Of a stretch of 12,164 nucleotides of DNA, positions 5,197-11,948 are shown piece by piece (positions within the stretch are counted from its first letter, which is position 1; every line of letters begins with the position of its first letter). The stretch is from NCBI RefSeq assembly GCF_029433255.1, contig NZ_JAQTHU010000003.1:1-12164 (forward strand), written 5' to 3'. The position numbers were made by a program, and so were the translations under genes. Source of the stretch: Lactobacillus sp. ESL0791 (lineage in GTDB: Bacteria; Bacillota; Bacilli; Lactobacillales; Lactobacillaceae). The notes below the pieces were generated by a model. The model did not search any database. It was not told where the DNA came from and worked only from the letters and a program-made list of their open reading frames with translations.

Positions 5197-5222
5197 AAAA
5201 AAAGCGATAATTAAAGCTATCG
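5197..5222 (-). terminator. terminator of the small membrane protein gene
   Basis: CGATA (5205-5209) pairs with TATCG (5218-5222), and on the minus strand a run of seven T (complement of 5197-5203) follows one base beyond the stem. It overlaps the stop codon of the gene ending at 5217. Confidence 0.65.
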
Positions 5223-5405
5223 TCTTTTTGTGTGTAAAATTTTTATAAATTTATTTAATACAACATATATGCCAATAGCAATCCAAAATACTGATAACAG
5301 GATTAGCCATTTATCATGAATTATAATGCCGTAAACAAGCAGTAGCACAAAAAAAATCAATGCCCAGAAAGTTTTCATTTTTAAAATTGTCTTGAAATTT
5401 TCCAT
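5217..5405 (-). CDS. small two-helix membrane protein (unknown; possible immunity protein)
   Basis: A 62-residue hydrophobic protein with two predicted membrane segments, roughly residues 12-29 (TFWALIFFVLLLVYGIII) and 32-51 (KWLILLSVFWIAIGIYVVLN), and a basic tail (KILHTKRR). A GAAAAAGG site precedes the ATG by about 8 bases and a clear terminator overlaps the stop, so it looks like a complete single-gene unit. Small two-helix membrane proteins near bacteriocin loci are often immunity proteins, but this one is 0.7 kb from the nearest helveticin gene, across the toxin-antitoxin module, and I recognise no family. Confidence 0.6.
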   Translation of the reverse strand: MENFKTILKMKTFWALIFFVLLLVYGIIIHDKWLILLSVFWIAIGIYVVLNKFIKILHTKRR

Positions 5406-5540: not shown

Positions 5541-5640
5541 AAAAAAAGAGCGTTAAACGCGAGACCGTCTAACACCCAATCACAACAAATGAGATAGCTA
5601 ATCTCATTGCTCTTAGCTAGAGAGCTTTTGTTAACATCCA
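5541..5640 (-). ncRNA. antisense antitoxin RNA of the Fst-type module (RNA II-like)
   Basis: A predicted RNA of about 100 nt, from near 5639 to a terminator whose T7 tail is the complement of 5541-5547 (stem GCG/CGC around 5550-5560). The 5' end carries the complement of GTTAACATCCA (5630-5640), the same bases that begin the toxin gene (5760-5770). Two hairpins follow: AGAGC/GCTCT (5621-5625 with 5609-5613) and an 8-bp stem (5601-5608 with 5588-5595). Both expose AGCTA in the loop, matching the AGCTA loop of the toxin mRNA leader. Because TAGCTA is self-complementary these loops can kiss. Shared direct repeats in opposed transcripts are the hallmark of the pAD1 par family. Boundaries are inferred. 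Confidence 0.7.
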
Positions 5641-5645
5641 TTTAT

Positions 5646-5674
5646 ATTATAACCGATTTGTAGAATGAGTACAA
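5646..5674 (-). promoter_or_regulatory. promoter of the antisense antitoxin RNA
   Basis: On the minus strand TTGTAC (5669-5674) and a perfect TATAAT (5646-5651) are separated by 17 bases. This is stronger than the opposing toxin promoter, as expected when antitoxin RNA must be in excess. Confidence 0.75.
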
Positions 5675-5698
5675 AGCATGTAGTAAAACAGGTAAAAT
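5670..5698 (+). promoter_or_regulatory. toxin mRNA promoter (tentative)
   Basis: TACAAA (5670-5675) and TAAAAT (5693-5698) with 17 bases between. The start would be near 5704, exactly where the leader hairpin begins. Its -35 overlaps that of the divergent antitoxin promoter, so the two would compete for polymerase. The -35 is poor. Confidence 0.45.
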
Positions 5699-5703
5699 AT
5701 TTA

Positions 5704-5742
5704 TTGGAGTTGAAGAATTAGCTACTCTTCAATAAGCTCCAA
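5704..5742 (+). promoter_or_regulatory. 5' leader hairpin of the toxin mRNA
   Basis: TTGGAG/CTCCAA (5704-5709 with 5737-5742) encloses TGAAGA/TCTTCA (5711-5716 with 5726-5731), with ATTAGCTAC in the loop. It stands at the presumed 5' end, just before the ribosome binding site (AAGGCGGTGAG, 5743-5753). In pAD1 par a 5' stem-loop delays toxin translation; a similar role is inferred here, with the loop as contact point for the antisense RNA. Confidence 0.6.
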
Positions 5743-5757
5743 AAGGCGGTGAGAGCA

Positions 5758-5862
5758 ATGTTAACATCCATTGCAAAACTGGTGGTCACTTTGGTGATCT
5801 TTCCAGTTGTAGCACACGTGTTATGCAAGATGCTTGATAAGCATTTTTTTGATAAGAAATAG
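5758..5862 (+). CDS. Fst-like type I toxin peptide (34 aa)
   Basis: A 34-residue peptide, MLTSIAKLVVTLVIFPVVAHVLCKMLDKHFFDKK, too short for most gene callers. It has one hydrophobic membrane helix with a central Pro (residues 5-23) and a charged tail with LDK and DKK, the layout of Fst (pAD1) and the holin-like peptides of lactobacilli. Fst-type peptides insert in the cell's own membrane and kill cells that lose the plasmid. AAGGCGGTGAG (5743-5753) is a strong ribosome binding site. The first codons are repeated (13 identical bases) at 5630-5642, inside the divergent antisense RNA, so that RNA can pair across the start codon. A terminator follows at 5884. Confidence 0.78.
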   Translation: MLTSIAKLVVTLVIFPVVAHVLCKMLDKHFFDKK

Positions 5863-6114: not shown

Positions 6115-7089
6115 TTAGCTCCAGGTTAATTCATACATCTTATTAGCAACAGTCTTATTTTTACCACCAACATTAGCGTGATATGCAACTGTTAACCAGA
6201 TATGATCTTCACCGATTACCTGAATGCCTTCTACCTCAGAATGTTTACCACTAATATCTAATCCACCAAATGAACTTAAATTAATTGAAAGCCACTTACT
6301 TTGATCGCTACGTGCATAATATGGAATTTTAATTATCTGCTTATGATGTGCTTGGTAAATGCCATTATTAAAATCTGGCTTTTTTTGACTAGAAATATAA
6401 ATATTACTATTGTCATCTAGATCATAGCCTTGGATAGAGTTTATAAGTCCCTTTTGCTTGGTTGTAGTAATTAAATTTTTAGTGGAAAAACTTTCTATAT
6501 AGCTAAAATTGCCAATATTTACGGGATCTGTGCTTGAACGATTAAGAGCTGCATTAATAGTATTTAGATCGTAAATAGTAAAATAACCATTACCAGCATT
6601 ATCGACAGTTGCGAGTAAAAATTTAGTATGATTTGGAGAAACTGCGGCTTCTGAGCGTTTCATATCAGTACCGTTATATCTTGTTCCATCAACCTTTAAT
6701 CCGCTTCCTGCACGGTTAAGGTAACCTAAACGTGGGAAATCTGTATTATACCCATGTGTACCGCTTTGTGTTTTAATATCAACACGTGCAATTTGTTTAG
6801 CCCAGTGCCCATTAGCCGTACTTGAAGGCTCCGTACCAATAAACCATTTGTCTTTATTACCTGAATATTCCCAAGTTTGTGTATGGCCGGCTGCACTATT
6901 AACCAACTCCAAAATTTTGGTAGAGACATTGCCCGCTTTCCCTCTTAAGACGAATGTGTCCTGTTGATTATTGCGTAATTGAAGTGCATAAGCGTATGTT
7001 TTTCCCATATTTCCTTTTTGCACTGCAGATCTGTGTCCTGTATTTAAGTCGAATTTTTTATTAATTAAAATATTTGTAATTTCTATCAT
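6115..7089 (-). CDS. helveticin J-like class III bacteriocin (copy 1, full length)
   Basis: A 324-residue protein of the helveticin J family, large heat-labile bacteriocins of Lactobacillus (helveticin J itself is about 333 residues). Family blocks read along the chain: YALQLRNNQQDTFVLRG, AGHTQTWEYSG, KWFIGTEPS, WAKQIARVDI, TDFPRLGYLNRAGS, SEAAVSPNHTKFLLATVDN, GYFTIYDLNTINAAL, INSIQGYDLDDNSNIYISSQ, AHHKQIIKIPYYAR, GGLDISGKHSEVEGIQ and a terminal MYELTWS. There is no signal peptide, so export needs another route or lysis. AAAGGAGA before the ATG is a strong ribosome binding site. A strong promoter flanked by two LexA-type boxes lies upstream. The gene stands alone, with shared terminators at 5955. 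No immunity gene is obvious in its unit. Confidence 0.9.
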   Translation of the reverse strand: MIEITNILINKKFDLNTGHRSAVQKGNMGKTYAYALQLRNNQQDTFVLRGKAGNVSTKILELVNSAAGHTQTWEYSGNKDKWFIGTEPSSTANGHWAKQIARVDIKTQSGTHGYNTDFPRLGYLNRAGSGLKVDGTRYNGTDMKRSEAAVSPNHTKFLLATVDNAGNGYFTIYDLNTINAALNRSSTDPVNIGNFSYIESFSTKNLITTTKQKGLINSIQGYDLDDNSNIYISSQKKPDFNNGIYQAHHKQIIKIPYYARSDQSKWLSINLSSFGGLDISGKHSEVEGIQVIGEDHIWLTVAYHANVGGKNKTVANKMYELTWS

Positions 7090-7109: not shown

Positions 7110-7175
7110 ATTTTAAGAACATATGTTCTTAAAATGATTATATCATTTTGGAACTTATTGTCAAACATATGTTCG
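7110..7175 (-). promoter_or_regulatory. helveticin copy 1 promoter with two LexA-type (SOS) boxes
   Basis: On the minus strand TTGACA (7159-7164) and TATAAT (7137-7142) are 16 bases apart. Box A is GAACATATGTTC at 7117-7128, at the centre of a perfect 26-bp palindrome (7110-7135), placed over the expected transcription start. Box B, CGAACATATGTTTG on minus (7162-7175), overlaps the -35. GAAC-N4-GTTC is the Gram-positive LexA/DinR operator core, and ATAT as the spacer is common in it. Bound repressor would cover both promoter ends. A different regulator with the same palindrome is possible. Confidence 0.75.
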
Positions 7176-7350
7176 AAAAACAAAAAGAGATATGGCTTAA
7201 TAACTATCTCTCTTACTTATTAATACTTATAAATTGAAACTTGAAGGCAATAAAACTAGTCAGATTCCTTGTGAGCTCTGACTTTTTTAATGCCCACTTG
7301 TGTTTTATTTGGTTCACGCCATATATTTTTGAATGAAGCCAGGTAATAGT

Positions 7351-7762: not shown

Positions 7763-8911
7763 TTAATCCTTTAGATTGTTTAATTTGTTAATTGCTGTAT
7801 TTATATTACGAATGGCCTCTTTTACTTCTGCAAGATTAGATGTATTTGCCTCATTTACTTTTTTACCACTTGTAATAGCATTATCGTAATCATAAGCTAG
7901 TTTCTTATAAGCCTGTGATTTTGTAAGAGCTAATTTGTATTTTTTACTAGATGTAAATTCTGGCTTACTATCAATTAGTTTTTGTAATTCTTGTTTATCA
8001 AAATCTGTTGCAAGCTTAGCATCCGCTTTTGCCTCTACTTGCGAGTTTACTGCAGCAGGCATTGGCTTACTGTTTTTAAAAAGACTGACATCAGATGCTT
8101 TAATGAAGCCATGCCAAGAATTTACTAGACGATAAAACAATTCCGTCTTATTTTCTTGGGGAATCCAAATGTAAACAGCTTCATCTACATTGACAAAGTT
8201 TCCTTTAATTAAATGCTTGCTAAAATTTTTTTCTCCTTTAATGGAATAAACATAAGCTTTTTCTTTTAAGAATGCACTTGGATACACAAAATAACTATCT
8301 AAATTTGCTTTTATTTTTTCTTTAAGACTGTAAGAACCAATAAATTGATTATCTTGATTGGCAATCTTGTATAAGATGTTTCCCACATTGCTTGTGTCTA
8401 ATTCGCCTACGAGTTTTATTTTTTTACCATTTTTGATATATCTCCCAGTAGGTAACACATCAGAACTTAAAACAGGAATTCTTTTTCCTTGCACTGCCCT
8501 TACAGTTATTGTTATCCATTGAGAAAATAAAAGCTGATGATTTACCGTTTCAATATTTGCAGTTTTAATATATCTATTATTACTAATTTTATAAAAAGCA
8601 TGCCCCTTAATAATGCAATATGGAAGCCAAATTTTGGTGCCGTCTTTTTCACGTAAGTAGTATTTTTTATTAACTGAAAGCTTTTTTATTTTACCAATAC
8701 ATTTGACAGATTGTCCCTTTTTAAAATAGGTCTTTCTACTTGAGGAAGAAAGTTTTTGCCCTTTTTTATTATAAATATAAGCACCATGAGCTAATTTTAA
8801 AGTATTAATATTCGAAGTAGCAGCCAATACACTAGATCCATCTTGTATAAGCAGTGGAATACCAGTTAGAATTATAGATAAAAGAACGATAATTTTTTTA
8901 TTTAATTTCAT
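7763..8911 (-). CDS. secreted SLAP-domain (S-layer-associated) protein
   Basis: A 382-residue exported protein. Residues 1-31 are a signal peptide (KLNKK, then IIVLLSIILTGIPLLI, cleavage near VLAA-T). Residues about 35-110 match the SLAP wall-binding domain (LKLAHGAYIYNKKGQKL, YFKKGQSVKCIGKIKK, YYLREKDGTKIWLPYCIIKGHAFYKISNNRYIKTANI). Two weaker SLAP-like units follow (about 130-200 and 205-282). A charged helical region (about 295-382, QELQKLIDSKPEF...INTAINKLNNLKD) closes it, so the order is wall anchor first and helices last. GAGGTGA precedes the ATG by about 9 bases. It is divergent from helveticin copy 2. SLAP domains bind the cell wall of S-layer lactobacilli, so the protein acts outside the cell. 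A role in self-protection from the bacteriocins is only a positional guess. Confidence 0.85.
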   Translation of the reverse strand: MKLNKKIIVLLSIILTGIPLLIQDGSSVLAATSNINTLKLAHGAYIYNKKGQKLSSSSRKTYFKKGQSVKCIGKIKKLSVNKKYYLREKDGTKIWLPYCIIKGHAFYKISNNRYIKTANIETVNHQLLFSQWITITVRAVQGKRIPVLSSDVLPTGRYIKNGKKIKLVGELDTSNVGNILYKIANQDNQFIGSYSLKEKIKANLDSYFVYPSAFLKEKAYVYSIKGEKNFSKHLIKGNFVNVDEAVYIWIPQENKTELFYRLVNSWHGFIKASDVSLFKNSKPMPAAVNSQVEAKADAKLATDFDKQELQKLIDSKPEFTSSKKYKLALTKSQAYKKLAYDYDNAITSGKKVNEANTSNLAEVKEAIRNINTAINKLNNLKD

Positions 8912-8949
8912 ATAAAATTCACCTCAAAATTTATAATAACATCATCTTA

Positions 8950-8955
8950 ATTATA
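8950..8955 (-). promoter_or_regulatory. -10 of the SLAP gene promoter
   Basis: A perfect TATAAT on the minus strand about 39 bases before the SLAP ATG. No good -35 is seen 16-18 bases away (TAAATT is the best), so the promoter may be weak or assisted. Confidence 0.45.
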
Positions 8956-9004
8956 GTTCATTCATTAACAATAATTTAATTAAATATTATTTTTGTCCTT
9001 TTTA

Positions 9005-9044
9005 CAAACATGCGTTTGCATAAAGCGAACATATGTGCTATATT
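9005..9044 (+). promoter_or_regulatory. helveticin copy 2 / lysis operon promoter with LexA-type boxes
   Basis: TTGCAT (9016-9021) and TATATT (9039-9044) are separated by 17 bases. CAAACATGCGTTTG (9005-9018) overlaps the -35 and has the symmetric arms of a LexA box with one change per arm. CGAACATATGTGCT (9026-9039) fills the spacer with a perfect left half-site and a degraded right one. Both are weaker than the boxes of copy 1, but the pair and the placement over the promoter are the same. The half-site CGAACATATGT is shared with copy 1's box B. Confidence 0.6.
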
Positions 9045-9090
9045 TGCTGCATAATAAAAATATAAGAAAAACAATAGGCGATGTGAAAAA

Positions 9091-9138
9091 ATGATAATTT
9101 TAATCTATATTAATTATGAGTGTACTGAAAAGAGAACA
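9091..9138 (+). CDS. possible 15-codon leader peptide before helveticin copy 2
   Basis: ATG at 9091 opens MIILIYINYECTEKRT and stops just before the helveticin ATG at 9144. AGGCGATG upstream (9077-9084) could serve as its ribosome binding site. Helveticin copy 2 itself has a weak site (AGAGA, 9131-9135), so coupled translation from this leader is possible. It may equally be chance. Confidence 0.25.
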
Positions 9139-9143
9139 TAAAA

Positions 9144-10019
9144 ATGAAAGAGTATCCAAAAATTTCACTTCTTACAGAAATAAGTGGTGGGTATGATGTT
9201 GTTATTCAAGCGAGTAATATAGCAAACAATAATATTTATGCATTGCAACTTCGTTCTGATCAACAAGATACATATGTAATTAAAGGGTCTAAAACATCAG
9301 GAAAAATGAATAAGATGCCAAGATTAGTTTTATCTGGCACTGACAATGATACTGCTGGAGGTATTACTCAAACTTTAAAATATACCGGTAATAATTCATG
9401 GTTTATTGGTACCAATCAAAGTGCTAATGGATATGATATAGAAATTGCACAAGTATGCTTTCCCGTGTCAGGCAGAGTAGCATACCATTCACATAAAGAA
9501 TTACCAAGATTATCGTATCTTAATCGTGCTGGTCAAGAATTCGGTTTAGCATATAACGATAAGAATATAAAACATGTCGAGGCAGCTGTTTCACCTGATT
9601 ATCAAGAATTACTTATTGCAAGTGTTGATAAAAGCGGTAATGGTTATTTTTCAATTTATGATATGAATGAAGTTAGTTCTGTACTAGATGAGGTAAATGT
9701 ACCTGGAACAGTAGAAAAGGATGTTATGATTACTGAATTATCATGTAAATATGCTCCTAATTCACCAATGGACACTAGAGAAAAAAGAAATGTTATAGAA
9801 ATTCCTTGGAATTATCCTATGAACAGTTGGCCTAGCAATCCTGATTCTTGGAAAAAAGCTAATTTTTCCGAAGCATCAATAGATATTTCAGGATATATTT
9901 CTGAATTTAAGAGTATTCAAGTCACAGATTATAATATGTACTTAACGGTTTCATATCATAATAAACTTACTAACTTAAAAGCGGATAAGCACCGAATTTA
10001 TAAGATTGAATGGAATTAA
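9144..10019 (+). CDS. helveticin J-like bacteriocin (copy 2, shortened)
   Basis: A 291-residue relative of copy 1 with the blocks IYALQLRSDQQDTYVIKG, GGITQTLKYTG, SWFIGTNQS, ELPRLSYLNRAGQ, HVEAAVSPDYQELLIASVDKSGNGYFSIYDMNEV, NVIEIPWNYP, IDISGYISEFKSIQ and a terminal RIYKIEWN. Compared with copy 1 it lacks about 30 residues in the middle, including the family's SIQGYDLDDNSNIYISSQ block, without a frame break, and the rest is well diverged. It may be inactive, have another target, or be a partner or self-protection form of copy 1. It has no signal peptide. It is the first gene of a rightward unit with the holin and endolysin, under LexA-type boxes. No terminator is visible between it and the next gene, 84 bases on. 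Confidence 0.85.
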   Translation: MKEYPKISLLTEISGGYDVVIQASNIANNNIYALQLRSDQQDTYVIKGSKTSGKMNKMPRLVLSGTDNDTAGGITQTLKYTGNNSWFIGTNQSANGYDIEIAQVCFPVSGRVAYHSHKELPRLSYLNRAGQEFGLAYNDKNIKHVEAAVSPDYQELLIASVDKSGNGYFSIYDMNEVSSVLDEVNVPGTVEKDVMITELSCKYAPNSPMDTREKRNVIEIPWNYPMNSWPSNPDSWKKANFSEASIDISGYISEFKSIQVTDYNMYLTVSYHNKLTNLKADKHRIYKIEWN

Positions 10020-10103
10020 CTTAAAAATGATATTGAATTTAATAGATAGGCAACTACTTGTAGTTCGAATTAGTCCATAAATGTAAAAAGGGAAACAAGC
10101 AAG

Positions 10104-10394
10104 ATGAGCAAAACCATTCTAATACTATTGACCTCTACCGCCTTTGGTGGGCTTGTTTCAATACTAATCAACTTCTATCAATGGCACGTAAAGTCAAAAC
10201 ATAAAACTGATGAAGAAGAGCGAAAGCAATTATATGATGATGTGCAATATTATCATACGAAATATCGTAATGACGAAGATGAAATCGACCATTTAAAAGA
10301 AGAAATTCGACAATTAAAAGAAGCTCAAGCTTTAGCGGAAACTTCTGAAAAGGAGGAAAGTGAAAATAATGCAAAACATAAACTTTTTCATTGA
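10104..10394 (+). CDS. small membrane-anchored coiled-coil protein of a phage-type lysis cassette
   Basis: A 96-residue protein: one N-terminal membrane segment (residues 4-25, TILILLTSTAFGGLVSILINFY) followed by a charged coiled coil (about 35-90, DEEERKQLYDDVQYYHTKYRNDEDEIDHLKEEIRQLKEAQ). AAAAAGGG upstream is a somewhat distant ribosome binding site. Its last codons overlap the start of the holin gene. Lactobacillus prophages often carry a small protein of this build just before holin and lysin. It may regulate or assist the holin, or be a second holin; the exact role is unknown. Confidence 0.65.
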   Translation: MSKTILILLTSTAFGGLVSILINFYQWHVKSKHKTDEEERKQLYDDVQYYHTKYRNDEDEIDHLKEEIRQLKEAQALAETSEKEESENNAKHKLFH

Positions 10395-10734
10395 AACGGC
10401 CATAATTATTATTGCTTTCTTGTTTGTAGGGTTATATCCCTACATTCAGGAACATAATAAGCCATTAGCTGACAAATTAGATATTTGGTACCAGATTGCT
10501 CAAGTCTTAGTAAATAATGAAACAACTAAGACTGAGAAAGCTGGCGCAGAAAAGAAACAGACCGCTACTACAGCCTTAGTTAACCAGGCTAAACAATTAA
10601 AGGTACCATTAGAAAAAAATGTGGCAGCTGGTTTAGTTCAAGCTGCATATGACAAGTCTCAACAGAGTAATTCAACGACTAAATTACCTGATACAATGGG
10701 CTTTGTTTCAGATAACAAACAAGGTAGTGATTAG
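10369..10734 (+). CDS. phage holin, LL-H type
   Basis: A 121-residue protein with one N-terminal membrane segment (about residues 5-25, FFIETAIIIIAFLFVGLYPYI) and a soluble, helical, Lys/Gln-rich remainder, the build and length of LL-H family holins of Lactobacillus phages. Holins open the membrane at a set time so that endolysin reaches the wall. Start choice: AAGGAGG at 10350-10356 lies 3 bases before a GTG (10360, giving MKIMQN...) and 12 before the ATG at 10369. The GTG is too close, so ATG is preferred. Two starts a few codons apart recall the holin/antiholin dual starts of lambda S, with an extra Lys in the longer form. The stop codon directly touches the endolysin ATG. Confidence 0.82.
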   Translation: MQNINFFIETAIIIIAFLFVGLYPYIQEHNKPLADKLDIWYQIAQVLVNNETTKTEKAGAEKKQTATTALVNQAKQLKVPLEKNVAAGLVQAAYDKSQQSNSTTKLPDTMGFVSDNKQGSD

Positions 10735-11793
10735 ATGTTAAACGGAGTAGATTTAGCCAGCCCTTATCAAACTGGTTTTCCAAAATTAGGACAAGACTTT
10801 GTCATTGTTAAATTTACTGAAGGAACCTATTACACTAATCCTGATCGGATAACACAAATAGCAACGGCCGAGTTAAAGGCTGCCTACCATTTTACTGCCG
10901 GGACAGATGTAATTGCTGAAGCCAATTTTTTCTTACAAACATTTAAACCTTATATAGGACAGGCGATCCCTGTCCTTGATTACGAGGGTACTGCTCTTAA
11001 TAAATGGACGCCGACACAGGTTGAACAATGGTTAGATTATGTCTATCAAAAAACAGATACTAAGCCTTGGCTTTACATGGCATTGAGTACAGAAAATAGC
11101 AAAAATTGGGCCTCAGTTGCCGCTAAATATCCCTTGTGGGTCGCGCAATACAATAATGGCATTACCACTGGCTTTCAGCCGCGTAATTTGTATGGCAAAT
11201 TAGCCCATCAATGGAATTGGGCTGCTTTTCAATATGCTGGTGGCAACGGCCGGCTAGCCGGTTGGGGTAACGGCCAAAAAGCTGTTGACCTTGATGTCTG
11301 TTATTGGACTAAGGAACAATGGCAATTTTGGGTAAATAAAAGCTCAACGGATATTGTTTCTCTGCATCCAGTGGTCAAGTGGAATGTCAATAGGGTGTTC
11401 GTTGTAACCACACCAACAGGCTGCAATTTGTACGATAGCCCTGATCTAACTAAAATAATTAAGCACTTAAATTATGGTTCCAGCTGGGCTGTGCTTGCGG
11501 AAAAAGATGGGGCTTTAGAATTAGGCAAAAATCAATGGGTCGACGGTCGTGATGGTTTTAGTAAGAGTAATCCATTAGCAACGCATGACAAATTATCAGG
11601 ACAGCTTAAAATAATTGCAGCAAATACTTATTCACTGTATAAGCCAGCTGACAATGCTACAAAGGCTGATAAATTGACGCTTAATCAGTTATACGATGTA
11701 ACTGGACGACAAAATAAATTTTTTATGTTACAAGAACAATTTAATGGCCAGACAGTTTATGTATCAGGAGATAATGCTTATGTAGTTTTGTAG
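10735..11793 (+). CDS. GH25 endolysin (muramidase) of phage type
   Basis: A 352-residue lysozyme-like enzyme of glycoside hydrolase family 25, which cuts the MurNAc-GlcNAc bond of peptidoglycan. Family landmarks: GVDLAS near the N-terminus (Asp6), AAYHFTAG (about 49-56), the catalytic pair VLDYEG (Asp82, Glu84), WLYMALS, PLWVAQYN, WAAFQYAGG and DLDVCYW. The catalytic domain ends near residue 205. Two C-terminal repeats (about 225-280 and 290-352; FVVTTPTGCNLYDSPDLTK..., LKIIAANTYSLYKPADNATK...) look like SH3/SLAP-type wall-binding units. There is no signal peptide, so release depends on the holin just upstream. TAG of the holin abuts this ATG; AAGGTAG serves as the ribosome binding site. It is the last gene of the unit. 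Confidence 0.92.
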   Translation: MLNGVDLASPYQTGFPKLGQDFVIVKFTEGTYYTNPDRITQIATAELKAAYHFTAGTDVIAEANFFLQTFKPYIGQAIPVLDYEGTALNKWTPTQVEQWLDYVYQKTDTKPWLYMALSTENSKNWASVAAKYPLWVAQYNNGITTGFQPRNLYGKLAHQWNWAAFQYAGGNGRLAGWGNGQKAVDLDVCYWTKEQWQFWVNKSSTDIVSLHPVVKWNVNRVFVVTTPTGCNLYDSPDLTKIIKHLNYGSSWAVLAEKDGALELGKNQWVDGRDGFSKSNPLATHDKLSGQLKIIAANTYSLYKPADNATKADKLTLNQLYDVTGRQNKFFMLQEQFNGQTVYVSGDNAYVVL

Positions 11794-11885
11794 GATTCTT
11801 GGATTATTACAACTAAATTGGTTTAGAATGCTGCTCTCAACACTAGACTTAATAAATTAGCCGTGAGATAGATTTTGGCAACAAA

Positions 11886-11920
11886 AAACCGACTTAGAAA
11901 ATAAATTTCTCAGTCGGTTT
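11886..11920. terminator. bidirectional terminator between the lysis operon and the rep leader
   Basis: AAACCGACT (11886-11894) and AGTCGGTTT (11912-11920) pair perfectly, with inner AGAAA/TTTCT. The T-run is longer on the minus side. It ends the endolysin transcript and shields the rep promoter. Confidence 0.75.
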
Positions 11921-11921
11921 A

Positions 11922-11948
11922 TTGCATTATCGCAAATTATGCTATAAT
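11922..11948 (+). promoter_or_regulatory. repA promoter (likely)
   Basis: A perfect TATAAT at 11943-11948 with TTGCAT at 11922-11927, a short 15-base spacer. The transcript would start near 11955 and carry a leader of about 170 bases before repA. Confidence 0.55.

Follow-up and report, generated by a model that had tools for sequence, protein, structure and literature searches.

Lysis-linked bacteriocins and a proposed release operon of Lactobacillus sp. ESL0791

Colicin operons, located on small plasmids of Gram-negative bacteria, combine a LexA-controlled toxin gene with a downstream lysis gene encoding a small lipoprotein, and include an immunity gene. The known system closest in logic to the locus described here is Bcn5-UviA-UviB-amidase of Clostridium perfringens plasmids. 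In the parts of two papers that deal with it, a large leaderless bacteriocin is encoded on a plasmid with a linked holin and endolysin; its induction belongs to the SOS response, and a LexA site has been proposed for it (PMC9527704, PMC4459074). Here we analyze a stretch of 12,164 nucleotides from Lactobacillus sp. ESL0791, which as a whole is called the window and carries two genes of the helveticin-J family (HELV1 and HELV2) along with a set of lysis genes. The reading we favor, with a probability of roughly 0.6, is an SOS-induced helveticin release operon: two SOS-type units would be present, and the lysis of damaged cells would free leaderless helveticins.

DNA damage would inactivate the LexA protein of the host, after which HELV1 and the operon HELV2-ACC-holin-endolysin would be transcribed together. 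ACC and the holin would permeabilize the membrane and the GH25 endolysin would cut the wall. A minority of damaged cells would then burst and free the leaderless helveticins, HELV1 above all, which would act on related bacteria. Induction, co-transcription by read-through, lysis, release and killing are thus predicted from sequence.

The window is taken as a complete circular Lactobacillus plasmid of 12,164 bp because it coincides exactly with a contig of this length and the repA open reading frame (ORF) runs unbroken across the contig ends. Besides the two helveticins and the lysis genes, it encodes a RepA_N replication protein, a ParA-type protein, a DUF5388 protein and a SLAP protein. A comparison of the whole plasmid with PLSDB returned nothing beyond 76-base matches in eight records. 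The host genome (2.43 Mb, four contigs) encodes a LexA protein with DNA-binding and S24 domains, and a box lies upstream of lexA. Among 30 lexA loci, that of ESL0679 is the nearest to the host lexA region by bit score (74% identical). Apis mellifera is the source of the pIBH plasmids discussed below, and we presume a bee habitat for the present host as well.

The operon genes span 9144-11793 and all lie on the forward strand. ORFs and Pfam scores confirm the order HELV2, ACC, LLH-type holin and GH25 endolysin that a sequence-only reading of this DNA had proposed. HELV2 (9144..10019; 291 amino acids) scores 86.9 bits against PF17312, with a cut-off of 25.5. As that reading had also stated, no signal peptide is seen in it. 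The N-termini of HELV1, HELV2 and the endolysin lack a strongly hydrophobic segment; ACC and the holin contain one each. ACC (10104..10394; 96 amino acids) consists of a single hydrophobic segment with a charged tail and resembles phrog_6664, to which no function is assigned. The holin (10369..10734; 121 amino acids from the ATG after AAAAGGAGG) overlaps ACC, and its start is preceded by a good ribosome site. Its name is borderline by curated models (PF09682: 25.2 versus a cut-off of 24.9; NCBIfam holin_LLH: 23.7, below the cut-off of 34.75), yet it is also supported by gene position and prophage kin. Among the PHROGs, the holin matches phrog_8444, which has no named function, with an expectation value (E) of 8.4e-21, and the holin family phrog_6918 with an E of 0.0027. 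The endolysin (10735..11793; 352 amino acids, no signal peptide seen) begins directly after the holin stop and reaches 67.9 bits against PF01183 (cut-off 27). Its GH25 membership is borne out by a profile of seven lysins that matches lysozyme 1h09 (E 6.3e-24); the single sequence gave no PDB match at 0.001. Residues 82-84 of the endolysin are DYE. A strong terminator-like hairpin follows the endolysin at 11886..11920 (+), with a fold of -19.5 kcal/mol for 11870-11935. HELV2 and ACC are separated by 84 bases in which no terminator is seen (fold of -7.6 kcal/mol, no T run).

The locus shares with the Bcn5 system the plasmid location, a leaderless large bacteriocin, a linked holin and endolysin and, in the form of SOS-type boxes, a probable SOS control. 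Unlike here, the bacteriocin of that system is a different one, its holin is of the BhlA family and its endolysin is an amidase. Moreover, that system switches on its toxin gene through a sigma factor, UviA, whereas in the present locus the promoters themselves carry the boxes. No sigma factor above the Pfam cut-off occurs among the ten window proteins, and the locus falls outside the Bcn5/UviB group. The layout had earlier been likened to that of colicin operons. The logic of that comparison stands, as a candidate toxin gene behind LexA-type boxes is followed by predicted lysis genes on a small plasmid. The kinship does not, as ACC, a phage-type holin and an endolysin replace the small lipoprotein lysis gene and no immunity gene was identified.

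LexA-type boxes at the promoters

LexA-type boxes were scored with a 16-base profile built from 22 boxes, 20 of them located before lexA (in 17 of the 30 loci) and two before one DNA-polymerase-Y gene of ESL0679, in which the polymerase domain is present. No helveticin or lysis promoter contributed to this profile. The training boxes were chosen by a Bacillus-type consensus, leaving out 13 lexA loci without a match; 21 of the 22 score 16.1-19.1 bits, and the remaining one (7.5 bits) is probably no box. The profile replaced a search of the own genome with the pattern GAACNNNNGTTC, which gave nine sites and is too strict, given that GTTT forms the end of the lexA box in this genome.

The four best sites in the window start at 7161 (18.0 bits), 9004 (17.5 bits), 7115 (16.5 bits) and 9025 (12.5 bits), followed by a fifth of 11.5 bits. 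Two of them flank the promoter of HELV1 (6115..7089 on the reverse strand; 324 amino acids), an intact member of the helveticin-J family in a separate SOS-type unit. This promoter, TTGACA-16-TATAAT at 7137..7164 (-), agrees with the consensus at 12 of 12 positions. Box A (TCGAACATATGTTTGA; 7161..7176, -) overlaps its -35 element and box B (AAGAACATATGTTCTT; 7115..7130, -) lies just downstream of its -10 element. Before HELV2, a promoter-like TTTGCA-18-TATATT with TG ahead of the -10 element (9015..9044, +) has the same layout as the lysis-cassette promoters of relatives. Box C (ACAAACATGCGTTTGC; 9004..9019, +) overlaps its -35 element. Box D (GCGAACATATGTGCTA; 9025..9040, +) falls within the spacer and the -10 element, and its identical 16 bases precede a helveticin in genome G104. 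Of the two LexA-like boxes previously placed on the HELV2 promoter, the one at 9004 is indeed strong and the one at 9025 is weak on its own. The other two strong boxes belong to HELV1 and lie beyond the interval 9005..11920 of the sequence-only reading.

Dinucleotide shuffling of the window (100 replicates) gave a mean of 0.02 sites of at least 16 bits, against three observed, and a mean of 0.18 sites of at least 12.4 bits, against four observed. When the region 8912-9143 was shuffled 2000 times, 17.5 bits was never reached and 12 bits was reached eight times. The own-genome background, 11 stretches with 55,912 positions, contains one site at a threshold of 16.06, where six stretches had been picked for holding GAACNNNNGTTC and two others also hold such a site. 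Operators like those before the lexA and polymerase-Y genes are hence found at the promoter, and LexA would be expected to bind the plasmid boxes and to release them upon DNA damage. Another contig from this cell, 28.7 kb long, also has a 17.5-bit site (CCAAACACACGTTCGC; G000:C2, L194 position 6794), beside genes that by eye resemble phage terminase and portal genes.

HELV1 and HELV2 both exceed the helveticin J cut-off of PF17312, but the locus differs from most of this family in its boxes and in its holin linkage, which is found in seven loci. A survey covered 86 helveticin ORFs with at least 150 nucleotides upstream, including near-copies and three N-truncated ORFs that share their box with a divergent ACC. 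A site of at least 15 bits precedes 12 of these ORFs and one of at least 11.9 bits precedes 14; in the other 72, no LexA-type site exceeds 5.9 bits. The 30 top-ranked helveticin loci have almost no boxes, and SOS control is not a general feature of helveticins. On a tree of 75 helveticin proteins (10 boxed), the boxed state requires at least four changes. Predicted SOS-type control is thus a minority trait of the family, clustered, though not a single clade in this tree. Genome G046 holds three helveticins (L033, L179, L182) with LexA-type sites of 16.7, 11.9 and 17.4 bits, and no holin cassette was seen in the surrounding 12-14 kb.

Recurrence and origin of the lysis cassette

A search for ACC in 75 genomes of the genus matched ten, six of them strongly, and the addition of plasmid records and named contigs led to eight distinct strong loci. 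In the first, the ESL0791 plasmid, a box lies upstream of the cassette via HELV2 only, with at most 4.9 bits in the 400 bases before ACC. The 8.6-kb plasmid of ESL0679 carries SLAP, a box, ACC and an endolysin (80% identical), plus a boxed helveticin. Its contig ends inside ACC and starts at the apparent end of the holin, which would put the holin next to the endolysin across the contig ends. The ESL0679 chromosome has a box, ACC and a shortened holin with SLAP on either side, and the visible 14 kb contain no helveticin. ESL0246 comprises SLAP, a helveticin, ACC, a holin and an endolysin (77% identical) without a box. The fifth locus is one small plasmid represented by four records or genomes (two Apis mellifera plasmids, L. 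melliventris and L. laiwuensis), with SLAP, a helveticin, ACC and a holin, again without a box; in one record SLAP falls off the short contig. In pIBH003-1, pIBH002-1 and G104, ACC-holin is divergent from a 241-residue helveticin that lacks the N-terminal third (L130 6983-7708, L131 6984-7709, L199 8087-8812); farther out follow SLAP and another helveticin, which has a box.

A SLAP gene is found near the cassette in all eight loci, a helveticin within about 2 kb in seven and a LexA-type box before the cassette promoter in six. The search for helveticins next to holin-lysin pairs on Lactobacillus plasmids, which had been recommended, accordingly reveals a recurrent helveticin-holin linkage, and the endolysin part recurs less often (see below). 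In the five other boxed loci, the box (15.5-18.8 bits) immediately precedes ACC. The layout of a box followed by TGnTATATT is common to the cassette promoters here, on the ESL0679 plasmid and chromosome, and in pIBH003-1, pIBH002-1 and G104. Because the box sits directly before ACC elsewhere and the promoter layout is shared, the comparison suggests that HELV2 lies between the SOS-type promoter of a lysis unit and its lysis genes. Among metagenome clusters of ACC and HELV2-like proteins, three pairs have longest contigs of equal length (7701, 6894, 11021), which hints at linkage of the two. The leader before ACC (L130 7900-8000, L131 around 7880-7990) contains a terminator-like hairpin; competition between it and a segment farther upstream, in the manner of attenuation, is conceivable.

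A phage origin of the cassette is likely because a similar triad occurs in Lactobacillus prophages (phrog_6664/3671, phrog_8444/10813, phrog_291). In the prophage-like regions L200-L202, an ACC-like gene is followed in the same order by a gene of holin type and a GH25 endolysin, which upholds the view of a phage-type lysis cassette on a plasmid. The endolysins of L200 and L202 belong to phrog_291 and L201 has a GH25-like ORF; phrog_521 tail genes are present in L201 and L202, with a weak tail match in L200. The plasmid cassette differs from these in its low identity, the absence of tail genes, its SOS-type promoter and its SLAP and helveticin neighbors. The weak ACC matches in L200-L203 have box scores of at most 3.1 bits. 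The same triad could also mean that a prophage lysis remnant came to lie beside a helveticin by chance. We regard this as very improbable given that all eight strong ACC loci whose context was examined adjoin SLAP and/or a helveticin (most of the 14 ACC clusters fall outside this set) and that several cassette loci have promoters in common. In addition, neither ACC nor the holin matches any of 50,697 phage records at an E of 0.01, and ACC has no match in IMG/VR. The cassette genes appear to be maintained by selection. Of 28 gene pairs, 13 give both substitution rates, and their ratio of nonsynonymous to synonymous changes (dN/dS) lies between 0.07 and 0.35; the other 15, ten pairs without usable dS and five out-of-frame ACC pairs, are left out.

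State of the helveticins and alternative readings

Several observations weigh against the release operon as proposed. HELV2 lacks a conserved segment of about 30 residues (GSIQGYDID...NIYISSQ), and its conservation is the lowest of 44 alignment rows (median 97%). No LexA-type box precedes the two chromosomal helveticins of the same genome. Separate transcription of ACC could start from a promoter-like site at 9907-9935 (the window has 48 such sites, with 51.9 expected). The same gene order occurs in ESL0246 and on the small bee plasmid, where the box scores are at most 0.7 bits before ACC and below 0 before the helveticin and where a terminator-like hairpin separates the two genes. An endolysin adjoins the holin in just three of the eight loci, including the one deduced for the ESL0679 plasmid. 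Finally, no immunity gene was recognized among the window proteins. To our knowledge, no immunity protein has been described for helveticins. A 62-residue protein with, by eye, two membrane helices is encoded at 5217-5405 (-), downstream of HELV1 past a terminator-like site, and is a possible immunity candidate.

HELV2 keeps 43 of 65 near-invariant residues, compared to 60 of 63 in HELV1. Its structure model is poor at residues 181-230, where the segment is absent (predicted local distance difference test (pLDDT) of 35-67 per block), and its branch is long (0.87 versus 0.32 for its sister). It appears to be a damaged or strongly diverged helveticin, and its role as a toxin is doubtful. HELV1 scores 152.2 bits against PF17312 (cut-off 25.5) and its structure model has a pLDDT of 94.2. 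With the segment missing and only 43 of 65 residues kept in HELV2, HELV1 seems the better toxin candidate. The assumption that the operon encodes its own bacteriocin therefore holds for family membership, but the better candidate lies outside the operon, which may mainly release HELV1, whose gene has an SOS-type promoter of its own. The state of HELV2 also leaves room for a reading in which it is decaying or repurposed (e.g., as a decoy or immunity protein) and just happens to separate the lysis genes from their SOS-type promoter; the operon would then be a lysis unit only. The truncated helveticins adjoining the cassette in L130, L131 and L199 are in line with this, which we nonetheless consider quite unlikely. 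One chromosomal helveticin of the host genome has an internal stop.

Non-lytic export remains a rival because five of the eight loci have ACC and a holin (shortened in the ESL0679 chromosome) without an adjacent endolysin. Holin and ACC would then pass the helveticin, and the endolysin, from living cells, and the endolysin would open the wall only locally. For clostridial toxins, export by way of holins has been reviewed, and such a route has been put forward for Bcn5 (PMC9527704). We judge it unlikely for the present plasmid, where a complete endolysin under purifying selection directly follows the holin and where the SOS-type boxes are more in keeping with the bursting of damaged cells than with continuous export.

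Suicidal release would turn helveticin release into an SOS response of lactobacilli. In the bee Lactobacillus Bma5N, a helveticin homologue without a signal peptide was detected among extracellular proteins under stress; it adjoins an S-layer gene on a replicon that the authors name the "secondary chromosome", and its release is left unexplained in the portion concerned (PMC4015849). HELV1, HELV2 and, by the same partial account, the Bma5N homologue all lack an export signal. We found no account of how leaderless helveticins exit the cell and, judged by the bibliographic entries of the library searched, no paper that deals with this under helveticin combined with LexA, holin, mitomycin or propeller. 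The novelty would lie in an SOS-controlled, lysis-released bacteriocin that uses a helveticin and an LLH/GH25 cassette in lactobacilli; the general kind is already known.

The helveticin fold matches the receptor-binding propellers of phages (Staphylococcus phage tails), which provides a first testable guess at the helveticin target. HELV1 gave no matches to phage sequences, nor did the helveticin profile to PDB sequences. A tentative extension, which we think probably does not hold, is that of a particle-free bacteriocin made of phage-like parts: the helveticin would be a free receptor-binding propeller for a wall glycopolymer of rivals, released by SOS-controlled phage-type lysis, and SLAP may shield the producer. 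The SLAP-domain protein between the two helveticins (7763..8911, -), a recurrent neighbor, could act as partner or shield. Of 81 helveticin genes examined, 33 have a SLAP-like ORF no more than 1.5 kb away, with only about 1.5 kb of flank visible at many of the loci.

An Rfam scan of the window gave no matches up to an E of 0.1, the region 5630-5862 (+) included. This region, which includes a hydrophobic ORF of 34 residues (at 5758) and the repeat GTTAACATCC (at 5630 and again at 5760), could be a type I toxin-antitoxin system of the Fst kind.

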